From: Cellvibrionaceae bacterium 1162T.S.0a.05
GTDB lineage: Bacteria; Pseudomonadota; Gammaproteobacteria; Pseudomonadales; Cellvibrionaceae
NCBI GenBank assembly: GCA_000964245.1
Contig: LANB01000001.1
Location: 1,157,501-1,221,500, forward strand
Length of the DNA stretch: 64,000 nucleotides
Reading direction: 5' to 3'
Under the pieces are notes generated by a model. The model made no database searches. It had not been told where the DNA came from and worked only from the letters and a program-made list of their open reading frames with translations. A program made the position numbers and the translations under genes. Shown here in pieces: positions 24,791-32,055 of this stretch (the stretch's first letter is position 1; the number at the start of each line of letters is the position of its first letter).

Positions 24791-27487
24791 CTATAGCTCA
24801 TCAGGCAGGAGCCAAGGTTCATGCTGCACTCTCAGCATGGCCTCCATTCTTGAGCTGGCATTTAATTTGGCCAGGATTGAAGAAACATGATGCTCAATGG
24901 TGCGGGGAGAGCGTGAGAGGCTATCCGCAATATCCCGATTTTGCGCCCCTCGCGCCATCATCGCCAGTATCTGCTGCTCTCGCCGTGTGAGCCCCATGGG
25001 ATTGTTGCGTGCAGCTTTGTATGGCCCGCGCCGTGTTTTCGGCATTGCAGCCTCAAGGCCCTGCGCCTGTACCAGGCCCTGTAGTTTATTGAGCGCACGA
25101 CGTGCGCCCATTTCTTCCAACAACCTTTGCGCACGTACGAAGTTTTCGAGGTTTTGCTGCGCTCCCCCCTCGTTGTCACTTCCGCGACTTTGCATTAAGG
25201 CCAATGCAGCCGCATAGGGTAAACCAAGTTTTTCCCAGGCATCGGCTGCCTCACTGAATTTGCCTTCAAACTCCAGCGCATAGGGTTCAGGCAATTCAGC
25301 ATAAAAATCCTGTTCGATAGGCAATTGCAAACGTGCGGCCCAGATTGCGGTCTCCCCGACGCGCCAGGGATGCATTTTTTCTGGCCCCAAGGCGTTAAGC
25401 CAGCCGAGATGTTCGTTGGCATTCTTAATCGTGTCGTCGAGCCAACAGGATTCAATCAAGCCCAGTCGGATAGGCACTATATTTTGCAGTTCGCCCGTCG
25501 CGAGGGCATCACTTAGTGCGCGCGATAGCAGTGCATAGGCATCCTCTTCGCCCATTCGCAAACGCGTTTTGGCGAGTACCGTCAGGGCCGGCAAGCGCAT
25601 AAGCAAGGTTGCGTCTTTTGCATTGACCACACCGGAAGCGATGGCTTCGGCATCCGCTAACTGGCCTTGCTCAAGACGTAATAGTGACAAGCGCCCGAGC
25701 ATATATTTACTCCAGGCAAACAAATCATACTGCGCATTAAAAGCAATTCCTTTTGGGAGTATTTCTTCCGCGAGTTCAAAATCCTTGAACTCCACTGCAT
25801 ACTCCGAGAGATTGGAATAAGCCCGTGCCGCTTGTTCATGAAAACCCTCAGCAATCGCCAGTGAGAGACTGGTGCGTAGCTCACCAATTCCGCGCGTGTT
25901 ATTGCGAAAGAGACGCGCAGTGCCCACGTTGTTCAATGCGTGAATTTTAACTTCCACATTGTTGTGCTCCTCCGCCATCTCAATCGCGCGCTCTCCCCAT
26001 TCCACCGCTTCATCCATACGGTCATTCAACATATGGAGCTGCGAACGCAAGCTATAGGCCATGGCTTTTTCTGCCGACGGCGGCGTATTTTCAAGTACAC
26101 GAATCGCATCATCGGCGTAGTGGCTGGCTTCAGTGGCTTCACCGCGATACCAATGCAGGCGCGATAGATTCCGCAGGTTTTCGCCAACCTTTTCCGGTCG
26201 ATCCAGGGCGCGCCACAAAGTGATGGCATGGCGATAAGCCTCCAGCACTTCGTCGTCCATGCGCAGGGCAATACCCGCTTCGTAGGCCCAACGTTCGTAA
26301 AGTTCGGCCGCCAGTTCAGTGGGGGCAGCACTCACAAAACGCAGTGCGGTTGCCAGGTGTGCGGCCGCTTCCCGGTGGGCGCCAACATCCGCTGCGAGAT
26401 TGGCCGCGCGGGGCGCAAACTCAAGCACTTGTGCACTGTCGAAGGAACCCGCCGCGTGATGCACAAGCTGGTCGAGACTGGCTTTGTGGTGGACGGCACT
26501 GTGTTCCAACTTGAGTAAAGCGTGCAACACACGCCCGTGAAACTCTTTCTGGTTCAGCGAGGACACACGCGCAAGCGTTGCAAGGCGCGCTAATTCGTGG
26601 CGAAAACGTAAACTGCCATCATTATTTTGAACGAGAATATTTCGGCCAACGCAGGCCATCGCCAGGGTTTCACCCTGCTCGCCAAATAGCGTGCGTAATA
26701 AAGCGAAATTAACGGCGTTGGGAATCACACTCAGGGTTTCCAATAATTCGCGCTCCCCTTGTGACAGGCGTGCAAGGCGTGCGCTAACCGCATCCTTCAC
26801 TGACGCGGGCACCATCGTATCGGCCTGGTGTTGACACTCCAGCAGCTCGGTGACAAAAAAAGGATTGCCACCGGTGACACTGTAAAGACTGTCGAGGCTA
26901 TAGCCTTCTGGCACGCCCAAACTTTCTACTGCATCGCGCGACAGAGCCAGCAATTCAATTCGTGTTGTTTGCGAAGGTGGCAGCGAACCAAACACCTGCA
27001 TTAGCGGGTGGGCTTCATGCACTTCATCGTTGCGATAGCTGATAACCAATAAAACAGGGAGATGTGCTATCCGGCGCCCGAGAAAATTCAGCAAATCCAG
27101 GGTCGCGTGGTCAGCCCAATGGGCATCTTCGATAACCAGCACGACACCGTTTTTAAAACCTTCCAACTCCTGCAGCAATGCAGAGTACAAACGTACAGCT
27201 TGCCCTCCCTCTTGCAGTTGCTGAGCGAAGGTCTCGCTAAAATCCTTGGCCATGTCTTGCAATGGGCCCAGAGGGCGTGGGGTAAACAACGCATCGCAGG
27301 CACCCCACAACACCAGCGCTTTGCGGCCGCCCTTGCGCGCTGCCCACTGTTCGCGAAAGGCATTCAGTAAGGAGGTTTTTCCCATTCCTGCCTCGGCCCC
27401 GAGCAGCACAACCGAACCCCGGCCCTGTGCACTTTGCTCGGCCATCTTGAGAAGCTGTTTAAGCGGCTGTTCGCGTTCGAGTAACAC
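24791..27487 (-). CDS. Large LuxR-type transcriptional regulator with ATPase and TPR-like repeats (MalT/LAL-like)
   Basis: 898 residues. An N-terminal AAA/STAND ATPase has Walker A AEAGMGKTS near 32-40 and Walker B VVLVIEDAHWAD. A long helical repeat region (about 350-800) resembles TPRs. The C-terminal LuxR helix-turn-helix (about 830-885) reads LTRREQQILAMMARGAQNRD onwards. LAL/STAND regulators couple ATP and an inducer to oligomerisation and activation. The start is GTG 27487 with AGAGGG at a good distance; an ATG 4 bases further up is out of frame. It is downstream of, and on the same strand as, the holin-endolysin pair across a 437-base gap. Target unknown. Confidence 0.88.
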   Translation of the reverse strand: MLLEREQPLKQLLKMAEQSAQGRGSVVLLGAEAGMGKTSLLNAFREQWAARKGGRKALVLWGACDALFTPRPLGPLQDMAKDFSETFAQQLQEGGQAVRLYSALLQELEGFKNGVVLVIEDAHWADHATLDLLNFLGRRIAHLPVLLVISYRNDEVHEAHPLMQVFGSLPPSQTTRIELLALSRDAVESLGVPEGYSLDSLYSVTGGNPFFVTELLECQHQADTMVPASVKDAVSARLARLSQGERELLETLSVIPNAVNFALLRTLFGEQGETLAMACVGRNILVQNNDGSLRFRHELARLATLARVSSLNQKEFHGRVLHALLKLEHSAVHHKASLDQLVHHAAGSFDSAQVLEFAPRAANLAADVGAHREAAAHLATALRFVSAAPTELAAELYERWAYEAGIALRMDDEVLEAYRHAITLWRALDRPEKVGENLRNLSRLHWYRGEATEASHYADDAIRVLENTPPSAEKAMAYSLRSQLHMLNDRMDEAVEWGERAIEMAEEHNNVEVKIHALNNVGTARLFRNNTRGIGELRTSLSLAIAEGFHEQAARAYSNLSEYAVEFKDFELAEEILPKGIAFNAQYDLFAWSKYMLGRLSLLRLEQGQLADAEAIASGVVNAKDATLLMRLPALTVLAKTRLRMGEEDAYALLSRALSDALATGELQNIVPIRLGLIESCWLDDTIKNANEHLGWLNALGPEKMHPWRVGETAIWAARLQLPIEQDFYAELPEPYALEFEGKFSEAADAWEKLGLPYAAALALMQSRGSDNEGGAQQNLENFVRAQRLLEEMGARRALNKLQGLVQAQGLEAAMPKTRRGPYKAARNNPMGLTRREQQILAMMARGAQNRDIADSLSRSPRTIEHHVSSILAKLNASSRMEAMLRVQHEPWLLPDEL

Positions 27488-27924: not shown

Positions 27925-28509
27925 TCAGCCGGCCCCACCTTTTATTTTTTTCCACTCTTCCACGACCTTATTTTTCGGTTTTCCTGAGGATTCGGTTATC
28001 GCATCGAATTGCTTTGACGCTGTAGACTCTTCATCAAGGTTCAATTGCCGAAAGGATTTTCGCATTGCAACCAGATTTTTTGCTGCCTGGACGGCATCTT
28101 TCTTGACCGCCATATCCTGCATTTTTATTTGCATGCGGCCGCCAAAGTAAAAACCGATAATGACGCTAAGCAAGGTCCAATACCCTTCCGGCATTAAATT
28201 ATAGGCTTGTGCGATTTCCAGGAACTTGGTGGGGTTCAATGGTGCCAGAACGAAGAAACTCAAAATAGCGATGGTGATCAAAGGTCTCGGCAAGCGATTC
28301 AACCCATCGACAAAGGAATCCCAACGTGTGCGGTTTTGACGGTCATGAAACTCTTTGGAAAATTGTTGCAAGGAAGCCAAATCACGGTCGACATCGGCCA
28401 TCACTTCCTCATGCTTGCGCTGCCCTTTATTTTCCTTATTTTCAACAAACACTTCCGCGACTTCCTTGCCGCCTTTGAATACACTCCCTAAAGAACTTAA
28501 CCAACCCAT
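27925..28509 (-). CDS. Putative holin (3TM, gene-transfer-agent type)
   Basis: 194 residues. An amphipathic N-terminus (MGWLSSLGSVFKGG) and a charged helical stretch are followed by two strong membrane segments (about 76-92 and 108-124) and a basic cytoplasmic tail. Size, order and the partner gene match the holin family named for gene-transfer-agent release (inferred from pattern, not searched). Holins assemble in the inner membrane and let a cytoplasmic endolysin reach the peptidoglycan. Its ATG shares one base with the endolysin stop (TAATG), so the two are made together. An alternative is an uncharacterised membrane protein. Confidence 0.65.
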   Translation of the reverse strand: MGWLSSLGSVFKGGKEVAEVFVENKENKGQRKHEEVMADVDRDLASLQQFSKEFHDRQNRTRWDSFVDGLNRLPRPLITIAILSFFVLAPLNPTKFLEIAQAYNLMPEGYWTLLSVIIGFYFGGRMQIKMQDMAVKKDAVQAAKNLVAMRKSFRQLNLDEESTASKQFDAITESSGKPKNKVVEEWKKIKGGAG

Positions 28510-29048
28510 TACGCCACCTCGCTTGCAAATTCGTCAACACGGTTTAGCCAGCCTCTCAGAAAAACACCCTGCGAAGGGTTGGCAGCAACAATTGCATGAT
28601 AAAAAATACGACGCTCCTCAAATAAGGCTTTTAAAAAATACTCGCCCATTTCCTGTTGAGCCCATTGTGCGCCCTTACGCGTGTTAGGCCCCATTGCACC
28701 GTCCTCCGACAAAGGCGGTTCTCGCCCCGCTTGATTACACACACTCTGCACAAATTTGATTGCTCGGCGCGGTCCGTGATTCACCGCGCTATCAAAAACA
28801 AAGGCTTGAATTTCTTCAGGAAGTGTATTGATTGCGGGGCCGTAAAAATAATTTCGCTCATAAATTTCGCGGGCCACATCTTCAGATAAGTTTTGCACCT
28901 CGCTGACAAGTGCAGCATGGCCGAGATAGCGCGACAAGGTTTGCTGGGTAATCCCGTATTTGGTGGGCCCGCCTCTATCAGCAGGGTGGTCGACATACCC
29001 CCCCTCTCGCCGCAGGATGTCGTTAATCATTTCGTTAACACTTGGCAT
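28509..29048 (-). CDS. GH108-type endolysin (N-acetylmuramidase)
   Basis: 179 residues with no signal peptide. The N-terminal catalytic domain has Glu15 in REGGYVDHPADRGGPTKYG, the GH108/ZliS signature. A peptidoglycan-binding_3-like C-terminal part has SEDGAMGPNTRKGAQ. GH108 enzymes cut the glycan backbone of peptidoglycan and occur mainly in phages and phage-derived clusters. AAGGAGG four bases before the ATG is among the strongest ribosome sites in the window, implying high synthesis once transcribed. It is directly upstream of the holin; no capsid, tail or integrase genes are near. No spanin or antiholin gene is seen. Confidence 0.9.
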   Translation of the reverse strand: MPSVNEMINDILRREGGYVDHPADRGGPTKYGITQQTLSRYLGHAALVSEVQNLSEDVAREIYERNYFYGPAINTLPEEIQAFVFDSAVNHGPRRAIKFVQSVCNQAGREPPLSEDGAMGPNTRKGAQWAQQEMGEYFLKALFEERRIFYHAIVAANPSQGVFLRGWLNRVDEFASEVA

Positions 29049-29148
29049 ACCCCCTCCTTGTTTGACGCCCGGGTACGGATACCACCCTGTTAACCCACGG
29101 CATAGCGATTTATTGTTAACACTGATCGGGCTTAAAAAGAAAGCCTAA

Positions 29149-29187
29149 GGGAAGCTCTGAAAAATGGCCTATTTTTCAGAGGTTCCC
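29149..29187. repeat. 39-base near-perfect inverted repeat
   Basis: Left arm GGGAAGCTCTGAAAAAT and right arm ATTTTTCAGAGGTTCCC pair at 16 of 17 positions around a 5-base spacer. It sits between the CadC-like gene and the endolysin gene. It could be a transcription insulator, or the fused terminal repeats of a vanished insertion sequence; no T-run follows on either strand beyond the arms. Confidence 0.75.
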
Positions 29188-29291: not shown

Positions 29292-31661
29292 TCACAATCC
29301 TATCTTCGCGAGGACAATTTGATTACAACTTTGCTGCATACTTGCGTATTCCTGAGAGAGTTGATGAAAGGTATCCTTGAAATTTTCGAGCGAATAAACA
29401 ATTTCTTTCAGAATCGGGGTCGAGTTGATCATCCCATAAGGCTTCCAACCGCGATTTTCCATACGCTTAATCACGCCCGCCACCTGTGCTTCATCCCCAG
29501 CCAATGCATGACGCGCCACTTCAACGCGAGCCATCAGTGGCGTATCCCAGCCCTTATTGCGCAGCTCCTGCAAGCGCTCATCCACTTCAGCAATGATGCC
29601 CTGAATCGCCGCCGGTTCTGCATTCAGATGACGCAGTGCCGCTGCCCGATACAATAGCACCATCAATTCAAGCTTGATTTCGGTTTTACGGCAACCGACT
29701 TGTGAACTGATATCCTTGAACTCAGCAAAGAGTGATGCTGCATTTTGATACTCTTTGTTAATGTATTCAGCAACGCCACGCAAATAAATATCCATCATCC
29801 CCACACACATTTGTTGATTAGGGTGTTTGAATTTTTCCTGGTTTTTTTCGAAAAACGTGGCCGCTCTTTTTATTTCATCAATATCCTGACGTGCCAGCGC
29901 CAGGCGCGCGGTCATCGAACCGTGTTCATAAGGTTTAACTGTTTCTCTTGAAATATTGATAAGTTTTTCTGCATCTTCCAGGCGGTCCAACTCAATCAAG
30001 GCTTCAACAACCGTTAACATCGTACGGTTCTTATATTCATCGCTGGTATTGAAACCCACCGCCAGATTCAATACCTCATCATAGCGACCAATATTTAGCA
30101 GTGCGTCCATCAAGGCACTCAAAAATAAATTGCGCGGGTCGGTTTTCAGGTAGTGCTCAAGATCATTAATCGCCTCGTCGTAACGCCCCATTCCGGTTAA
30201 CACCGAAGCATGGTTGTAACGTACCTGCGGATGAAGGGGGTCGTATTTGAGCGCTTCGGAATATTGTTCGAAGGCTGCAGCCACTTCCATGCGGTCATCA
30301 ACCAGAATATTCCCCAACCACATGTGCGCCATCGAATGCTGAGGGTTAAGCGCTATTGCTTTTTCAAACGCGGCGATCGCTTTTTGTTTTTCACCGCGGT
30401 TCATTAAGTACATGCCGTAGGCCGCCTGAACTTCAGCGAGCTCCGGCTCCAACTCAAGCGCGCGTTCGATTGATTGAGTTACCAGCAAATCAATTTCTTG
30501 TACTGGTTTGCTGTCGTAAACAGTCTGAAAAATCAAAGCTGTTGATAAGCCCGCCCAAGCGAGCGCGTAGTTCTTATCCAATGCCAGTGCCTGGCGAAAA
30601 TAATTGACGGCCAGGTCAATGGATTCCGGCGTACGTAAACTCCAGTGATGTTGGCCGAGGAAATAATAATCCTGAGCCAGGCGATTGCCCGTAGTGCCAC
30701 GAAAATCGAGGTTGGCCGTTTGTAAACTGGGGGTGAGTTGCTCTGCAATATTGGCGGCCACTTCCGTTTGCAGGGCAATTTTGTCTGCGAGGTCACGCTC
30801 AAAGGTCGCTGCCCAAAGGGAGTAGCCGTTGCGGGTATCCGTTAACTGCGTCGTAATGCGCAAGCGCTTGTCATGAATACGCACAGTGCCTTCAAGTAAG
30901 GCATCGACATTCAACTGCTCACCAATTTCACGCACATCCATCGGTTTATCGCGAAAGACATTCGAGGACGTACTGGCCGCAATGCGAACATCACCGTTAG
31001 TCATCAGTACATTACGAATATCCTCGGAAATGGCTTCGGCAAAATAAGCATTTTCAATTTCATTCCCCAAGCTGACAAAAGGCAGGACTGCAATCGCACC
31101 AATTCCCTTATTCTCCTTCGCGTCTGGTGCCAGTTTGGGGGTTTCCCGTGCCCGGTCCTCGTGCTCAATGCGAAACTCAATGTCCACCAGGCTCTGGAAC
31201 CCAAGAACGAGTACGACAGCCAGCGCAAATACGGCAACATAGGAAAGCAGCGAACCGCGAGTCTGCCCCTCTTGCTCGTGTTCCAGTTCCTCCTTGATAT
31301 CCTCTTCACTGACCTCCGGCGCAACCGGAACCAGCAATGAATAGCCCCGGCGAGGAATGGTTCGAATATAGGCACGTTCGCGTTCCTTGTCCCCCAGGAT
31401 ATTGCGCAATTCAGAAATACAACGCGTTATCGCATCGTCACTGACAATGACCTTGCCCCAAACCTGCTCAAGCAACATCTCTCTCGTGACAACTTCACCT
31501 TGATGGCAGGCCAGGCAAACCAACACATCCATGATTTTAGGTTCGAGGTGAATCTCACGTTCTTCCATGTAGATCTTGCCAGCGAGGGGCTTGACCTGCC
31601 AACCATTGAGGCGAAAGCCGCGCATCAACTGCTGTTTTACGATCGAAATATCACTTTTCAT
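29292..31661 (-). CDS. CadC-like winged-helix regulator with transmembrane segment and TPR sensor
   Basis: About 789 residues. An OmpR/PhoB-type DNA-binding domain (about 15-105, with ISELRNILGD and a terminal RRGYSLL hairpin) leads to a single membrane span (about 140-158, SYVAVFALAVVLVLGF). The periplasmic part has an adenylate-cyclase-associated-like segment (IAVLPFVSLG) followed by TPR repeats to the end. Such one-component regulators bind DNA from the membrane, as CadC and ToxR do. GTG 31667 is an alternative start; ATG 31661 is chosen. It lies upstream of the lysis genes but is separated by 243 bases and a strong hairpin, so regulation of them is only a possibility. Confidence 0.88.
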   Translation of the reverse strand: MKSDISIVKQQLMRGFRLNGWQVKPLAGKIYMEEREIHLEPKIMDVLVCLACHQGEVVTREMLLEQVWGKVIVSDDAITRCISELRNILGDKERERAYIRTIPRRGYSLLVPVAPEVSEEDIKEELEHEQEGQTRGSLLSYVAVFALAVVLVLGFQSLVDIEFRIEHEDRARETPKLAPDAKENKGIGAIAVLPFVSLGNEIENAYFAEAISEDIRNVLMTNGDVRIAASTSSNVFRDKPMDVREIGEQLNVDALLEGTVRIHDKRLRITTQLTDTRNGYSLWAATFERDLADKIALQTEVAANIAEQLTPSLQTANLDFRGTTGNRLAQDYYFLGQHHWSLRTPESIDLAVNYFRQALALDKNYALAWAGLSTALIFQTVYDSKPVQEIDLLVTQSIERALELEPELAEVQAAYGMYLMNRGEKQKAIAAFEKAIALNPQHSMAHMWLGNILVDDRMEVAAAFEQYSEALKYDPLHPQVRYNHASVLTGMGRYDEAINDLEHYLKTDPRNLFLSALMDALLNIGRYDEVLNLAVGFNTSDEYKNRTMLTVVEALIELDRLEDAEKLINISRETVKPYEHGSMTARLALARQDIDEIKRAATFFEKNQEKFKHPNQQMCVGMMDIYLRGVAEYINKEYQNAASLFAEFKDISSQVGCRKTEIKLELMVLLYRAAALRHLNAEPAAIQGIIAEVDERLQELRNKGWDTPLMARVEVARHALAGDEAQVAGVIKRMENRGWKPYGMINSTPILKEIVYSLENFKDTFHQLSQEYASMQQSCNQIVLAKIGL

Positions 31662-32055
31662 AGGCACTTATTGTATGTCTAGCGTAAAGGCGGAGGAGTG
31701 AATCCACGCGAACGTGTCAAAAATTATACAAATTTTAACTTATTGATTTTATTAACAAAAATTCTTCCTTAGATTTTCCTAAGGTAAGAATTAGAGATTA
31801 ATACGTAAGCACCCCTCTTTCCAAGCCCCTTCATCAGGAAGTTTGCAGTTGAAGTATGGAAAATAGCCCCATCGAAATTTGCGTAAGAACGCTATTCAAG
31901 AGGCAATATCGGGGCCAGCGCTTCACCATTCCCAAAAGCGTTTTCGCGCTCATTTTTCGGAGATCAAACACAAGAGCCACTCGAAGGCGGCCAACTAACA
32001 AAGCAATGCTCAAAAAACAAGCAACCACAAAGACCGTGGTCAGTTACACGCGCTG

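Follow-up and report, generated by a model that had tools for sequence, protein, structure and literature searches.

A phage-free lysis cassette of the gene transfer agent type in gammaproteobacteria and its possible link to contractile injection particles

The holin and endolysin gene pair described here is read as a domesticated release cassette of the RcGTA type, and its cargo in the host family is most likely a contractile-injection (eCIS-type) particle; we favor this reading tentatively, at rather less than even confidence. The components of the cassette are of known kinds. As far as the literature shows, two aspects appear to be new, namely the recurrence in gammaproteobacteria of an RcGTA-type lysis cassette that is free of phage genes and not accompanied by an RcGTA-type agent, and a statistical and, in one lineage, also positional link of the cassette lysin to eCIS. 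Bacteria in which an agent of the RcGTA type was not found carry the lysis part of a gene transfer agent (GTA), and in at least one genus selection maintains it. The features of the cassette and its flanks are compiled in Table 1; the window is the whole stretch of DNA that was analyzed, 64,000 nucleotides in length.

Table 1. Features of the lysis cassette and its immediate surroundings (positions in the window).
Feature	Position	Strand	Basis or remark
GH108 N-acetylmuramidase (endolysin), 179 aa	28509..29048	-	Pfam PF05838 and PF09374
GTA-type holin, 194 aa, two evident transmembrane helices	27925..28509	-	Pfam PF11351
Strong ribosome-binding site AAGGAGGGGG of the lysin	29050..29059	-	sequence read directly
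Palindrome of 39 nt (arms of 17 nt) located between the lysin and the regulator upstream of it	29149..29187	.	possible regulatory site or terminator
ToxR/CadC-like regulator (Trans_reg_C and TPR), neighbor	29292..31667	-	not a conserved neighbor
AAA/TPR LuxR-type regulator, neighbor	24791..27487	-	not a conserved neighbor

The lysin matches two Pfam families far above the cut-off (GH108, E = 1.7e-26; PF09374, E = 2.3e-13), and its N-terminus (MPSVNEMIND...), judged by eye, has no obvious signal peptide. The AlphaFold model of the lysin has a pLDDT of 94.7, and its matches in the PDB are Brucella SagA, the best one with 30% identity, and TtsA of Salmonella Typhi. The residues E15, D20, and T29 fall at the positions of Glu14, Asp19, and Thr28, which form the catalytic triad of TtsA (PMC6996933), and E15 and T29 are invariant in alignments of 18 and 23 relatives. 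The holin also matches its family, GTA_holin_3TM, far above the cut-off (E = 1.1e-19). While the Pfam name says 3TM, two hydrophobic helices appear evident in the window holin, at about residues 74-91 and from residue 108 onward, in an AlphaFold model of modest confidence (mean pLDDT 62.8). The core of the holin is conserved in alignments of 13 and 15 members. Genome-wide statements on the host genome are based on family searches, and these revealed one copy each of GH108 and GTA_holin in the 4.40-Mb genome, which consists of one contig. A preliminary description of this DNA had proposed a GH108 endolysin without signal peptide, a two-helix GTA-type holin, a TAATG junction between the two genes, and a very strong ribosome-binding site, and it was borne out in all these points: the stop codon of the lysin and the start codon of the holin overlap as TAATG, with one base common to both ORFs, and the ribosome-binding site is indeed strong. 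GGAGG-like sites are also present upstream of the lysin in most relatives.

The palindrome upstream of the lysin might be a regulatory site or a terminator. It occurs once in the window, and among the fetched loci its exact core is present only in the host genome's own copies. Neither a LexA box nor a sigma-54 site was found upstream of the window lysin, and control of the window cassette by LexA or sigma-54 was rejected on these grounds. No convincing flanking direct repeats that could represent insertion ends were detected around the cassette, and a search next to the pair did not reveal an adjoining ORF with a lipobox, i.e., a spanin candidate.

Lysin relatives with 47-78% identity are present in other genomes of the host family, in Marinobacter, Marinobacterium, Alteromonas, and Microbulbifer, and in several MAGs, and in most of them a homologous holin gene follows directly downstream. 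In the carriers that were read, the cassette is localized at differing, unrelated chromosomal places, phage genes are absent nearby, and no neighbors of the pair are conserved beyond close relatives in the neighborhoods read. Both reading frames are intact in many genera, and in one genus, Marinobacterium, the pair is under purifying selection, with dN/dS values of 0.08 for the lysin and 0.09 for the holin in a congeneric pair. The cassette is not a one-off leftover. Most genomes of the host family do not contain it, and Microbulbifer and Zhongshania contain the lysin without a recognizable holin. As a separate observation, the holin-less lysin of Microbulbifer lies near an integron-integrase-like gene (L027:7886-8908 and L028:2649-3671), and about 6 kb away from it a further lysin relative of larger size (437-457 aa) is encoded.

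Particles of the eCIS type leave by lysis of the producer, and yet some eCIS loci do not contain a lysis cassette (PMC10598620, PMC4122934), which raises the question by which route such particles exit. The host genome contains an eCIS-type cluster (G000:C1, about 3,782,500-3,803,600; loci L204 and L205) with genes for sheath, tube, CIS_tube, hub, spike, gp25, baseplate J, P2-I, and Pvc16, and no lysis gene was recognized in it. If the chromosome is circular, the cluster is about 1.8 Mb away from the cassette by the short way round. For the analysis of co-occurrence, 144 host-family genomes were used, of which 10 contain the lysin (called above 150 bits), 39 contain the eCIS marker Pvc16, and 8 contain both. 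Therefore, Pvc16 is present in 8 of the 10 lysin carriers versus 31 of the 134 other genomes (Fisher p = 0.0005, uncorrected for phylogeny). The p-value is 0.0014 with one of the near-duplicates G135 and G147, also uncorrected for phylogeny, and a split by genus g4, the genome count of which is a lower bound, yielded phylogeny-uncorrected p-values of 0.007 inside and 0.01 outside the genus. Pvc16 was chosen as the marker after the sheath match in the host genome was known, and before the test with 144 genomes the majority of the 10 carriers were already known. Outside the host family the carriers are mostly without Pvc16, including Marinobacter, both Marinobacterium, both Alteromonas, and others, and, therefore, eCIS cannot be the universal cargo. 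In addition, no eCIS genes were present in the fetched flanks of the first carrier set.

The positional link was observed in the near-identical, Microbulbifer-type genomes G147 and G135. Their lysin, which is 68-69% identical to the window lysin and has no holin beside it, is encoded directly downstream of a sigma-54 activator gene, which diverges from the first gene of an eCIS cluster. Related activators (44-51% identical) are encoded at the same place in the host genome and in strain Bs31. Good sigma-54 sites are present at all four eCIS operons examined, and that of the host, TTGGCACAGGCTTTGCT, is a strong match and starts 28 bases before the first gene. According to the site search, control by sigma-54 is not common to the host eCIS operon and the window cassette. 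Taken together, the link of the lysin to eCIS is suggestive, and it is not exclusive.

The preliminary description had interpreted the pair as a chromosomal lysis module that serves a distant particle cluster or controlled lysis, had drawn the analogy to GTAs, and had proposed to search the genome for particle clusters and to analyze their co-occurrence with the pair. The analogy is good at the protein level, with both genes being homologous to the RcGTA cassette. This homology, the phage-free recurrence, and the distant eCIS cluster fit the interpretation as a chromosomal lysis module, while an RcGTA-like GTA as the partner had to be abandoned, since the RcGTA-type marker GTA_TIM is absent. 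The proposed analysis of co-occurrence had a mixed outcome: most carriers in the host family have the eCIS marker, and most of those elsewhere do not.

In holin/endolysin systems, the holin opens the inner membrane, and a muramidase without signal peptide then reaches the peptidoglycan. After the cassette is switched on, the holin would make the inner membrane permeable to the GH108 muramidase, which has no obvious signal peptide; the muramidase would cross it and cut the peptidoglycan, and the cell, probably one of a minority of cells, would free a large cytosolic cargo. The leading candidate for this cargo in the host family would be the contractile eCIS-type particle, whose genes lie in another part of the genome. 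We infer both that the pair lyses or permeabilizes the cell and that eCIS particles are the cargo. In a more general form, lysis cassettes of the RcGTA type might act in trans as exit machinery for eCIS clusters without lysis genes, which we regard as conceivable, but doubtful. If true, this would explain for one bacterial family how eCIS particles leave the cell. The co-occurrence of the lysin with eCIS and its localization behind an eCIS regulator in one lineage make the question of eCIS exit testable.

The main rival to the eCIS reading is a cassette that resembles a type 10 secretion system (T10SS) or serves release in general, and whose cargo is not linked to it. The pair would then not be tied to eCIS; it would let out soluble enzymes, vesicles, or DNA, with or without lysis of the cell, and a local regulator, e.g., the ToxR-like gene, would control it. 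A holin and a signal-less peptidoglycan hydrolase constitute the core of a T10SS, and in Salmonella a ToxR-like regulator drives the chitinase T10SS, which has no spanins (PMC13284979). The nearest solved structures, SagA and TtsA, and the ToxR/CadC-like gene upstream of the window pair agree with such a system, and the carriers without eCIS need another cargo. However, no cargo gene is common to the loci read, and the ToxR-like neighbor is not conserved. The two large flanking regulators that had been pointed out in the preliminary description are present, but neither the ToxR/CadC-like nor the LuxR-type regulator is conserved beside the pair, and the regulators that flank it differ between loci. 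A release cassette of this kind is, in our view, a serious, but somewhat unlikely explanation.

It is less likely that the pair is the leftover of a prophage that has no present function or has not yet been lost. GH108 lysins are common in phages, and the absence of the cassette from most host-family genomes would fit a leftover. A prophage-like region in G006 (L019:9567-19477) contains a 50% identical lysin beside tail-like genes, identified by eye, which is consistent with a phage origin; the same genome also carries a phage-free cassette. Against a leftover argue the absence of phage genes around the carriers read, the intact frames in many genera, and the low dN/dS values of about 0.08-0.09 in Marinobacterium. 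Furthermore, the holin did not match any of the records of 50,697 phages, and the lysins of these phages are at most about 41% identical to the window lysin; a recent phage origin was, therefore, rejected. In the lysin tree, the window falls within a well-supported set of 12 rows, all of them loci from genome assemblies, and relatives from viral contigs (50-52% identical) are located outside of this set. In agreement with the preliminary description, which had noted a lack of phage structural genes and integrases nearby, none of the head, tail, portal, terminase, or integrase families was found for the 43 other window proteins among the 25 of 52 PHROG families listed. Judged by eye, most neighbors in the window are housekeeping-like genes of an ordinary chromosome.

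Still more improbable is a self-lysis module that provides public goods or defense: the pair would kill the cell so that DNA or vesicles are set free, or in reaction to an infection or to stress on the envelope. In principle, a free pair of holin and endolysin suffices to lyse a cell, and signaling proteins are encoded beside the pair in some genomes (e.g., G007), but a conserved sensor or defense gene beside the pair was not found, and the lack of a LexA box upstream of the window lysin also argues against this explanation.

That the pair is the release cassette of a GTA hidden elsewhere in the genome, as their homologs in the RcGTA cassette and the one HK97 capsid gene in the host genome might suggest, is hardly credible: GTA_TIM was detected in none of 17 carriers (the host genome and 16 others) in contrast to the rhodobacterial control, most carriers are devoid of HK97 capsids, and the host capsid is part of a small element in which an integrase-like gene is present. 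Due to the absence of GTA_TIM an RcGTA-like particle was rejected as the partner, and an RcGTA-like agent as a hidden partner is largely refuted; a particle with an HK97 capsid was likewise rejected as the common partner, since it is absent from most carriers. The element with the host capsid (L202:14570-20000 and L203:1-2100, corresponding to G000:C1 about 4.379-4.387 Mb) also contains a tape-measure-like ORF, and is a satellite or prophage remnant. The capsid of G054 (L207) is encoded in a similar-looking element. Near the contig end (L203:9950-19824), large ORFs with the repeated protein motif NPVNDNPVANDD...GDGTLNYVPNADFNGSDTITY are present.

Of the known systems, the RcGTA cassette is the one to which both genes of the window are homologous. 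In Rhodobacter capsulatus rcc00555 is reported to encode the endolysin and rcc00556 the holin of RcGTA, and after disruption of rcc00555 the particles stay inside the cell, showing that the lysin is needed for release (PMC3423380, PMC8601537). Like the window pair, the cassette and its relatives in Rhodobacterales contain the lysin gene followed by the holin gene. The window lysin is 34-39% and the holin about 30-41% identical to the fetched rhodobacterial loci, and the order is the same in most loci; the homology of the window to rcc00555 runs via these loci and the Pfam holin family. The window lysin reached 115.3 bits with the RcGTA-type equivalog NF040573, below the cut-off of 240. Both the RcGTA cassette and the window pair are localized apart from any capsid cluster. 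However, the RcGTA-type marker is absent from the window host. In addition, ccmE and ccmF are present in at least 33 loci of the rhodobacterial type, while the gammaproteobacterial loci vary. In L043, one of the loci with ccmE and ccmF, the cassette is localized between these two genes, and L043 and the 32 other loci of this kind are mostly from Rhodobacterales.

The T10SSs, i.e., Serratia chiWXYZ, Salmonella chiH/chiP and TtsA, and the system of Yersinia entomophaga, resemble the window pair in the combination of a holin with a signal-less peptidoglycan hydrolase outside of a phage, and TtsA has the same fold as the window lysin. Spanins are part of the Serratia and Yersinia systems, but both T10SSs of Salmonella lack them (PMC13284979); next to the window pair no spanin candidate was seen, and a spanin might be encoded farther away. 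In contrast to the T10SSs, the window has no linked cargo gene, and none is common to the neighborhoods read; its holin belongs to the GTA family, and its release function is a prediction. Brucella SagA, the best structural match of the lysin, is a stand-alone muramidase for which a holin partner was not seen, whereas the window lysin has one. The lysis genes of R-tailocins are localized inside the particle cluster (PMC10598620), while the window pair is far away from a particle cluster; they also encode a holin and a lysin that release a contractile particle, as is proposed here for the window pair.
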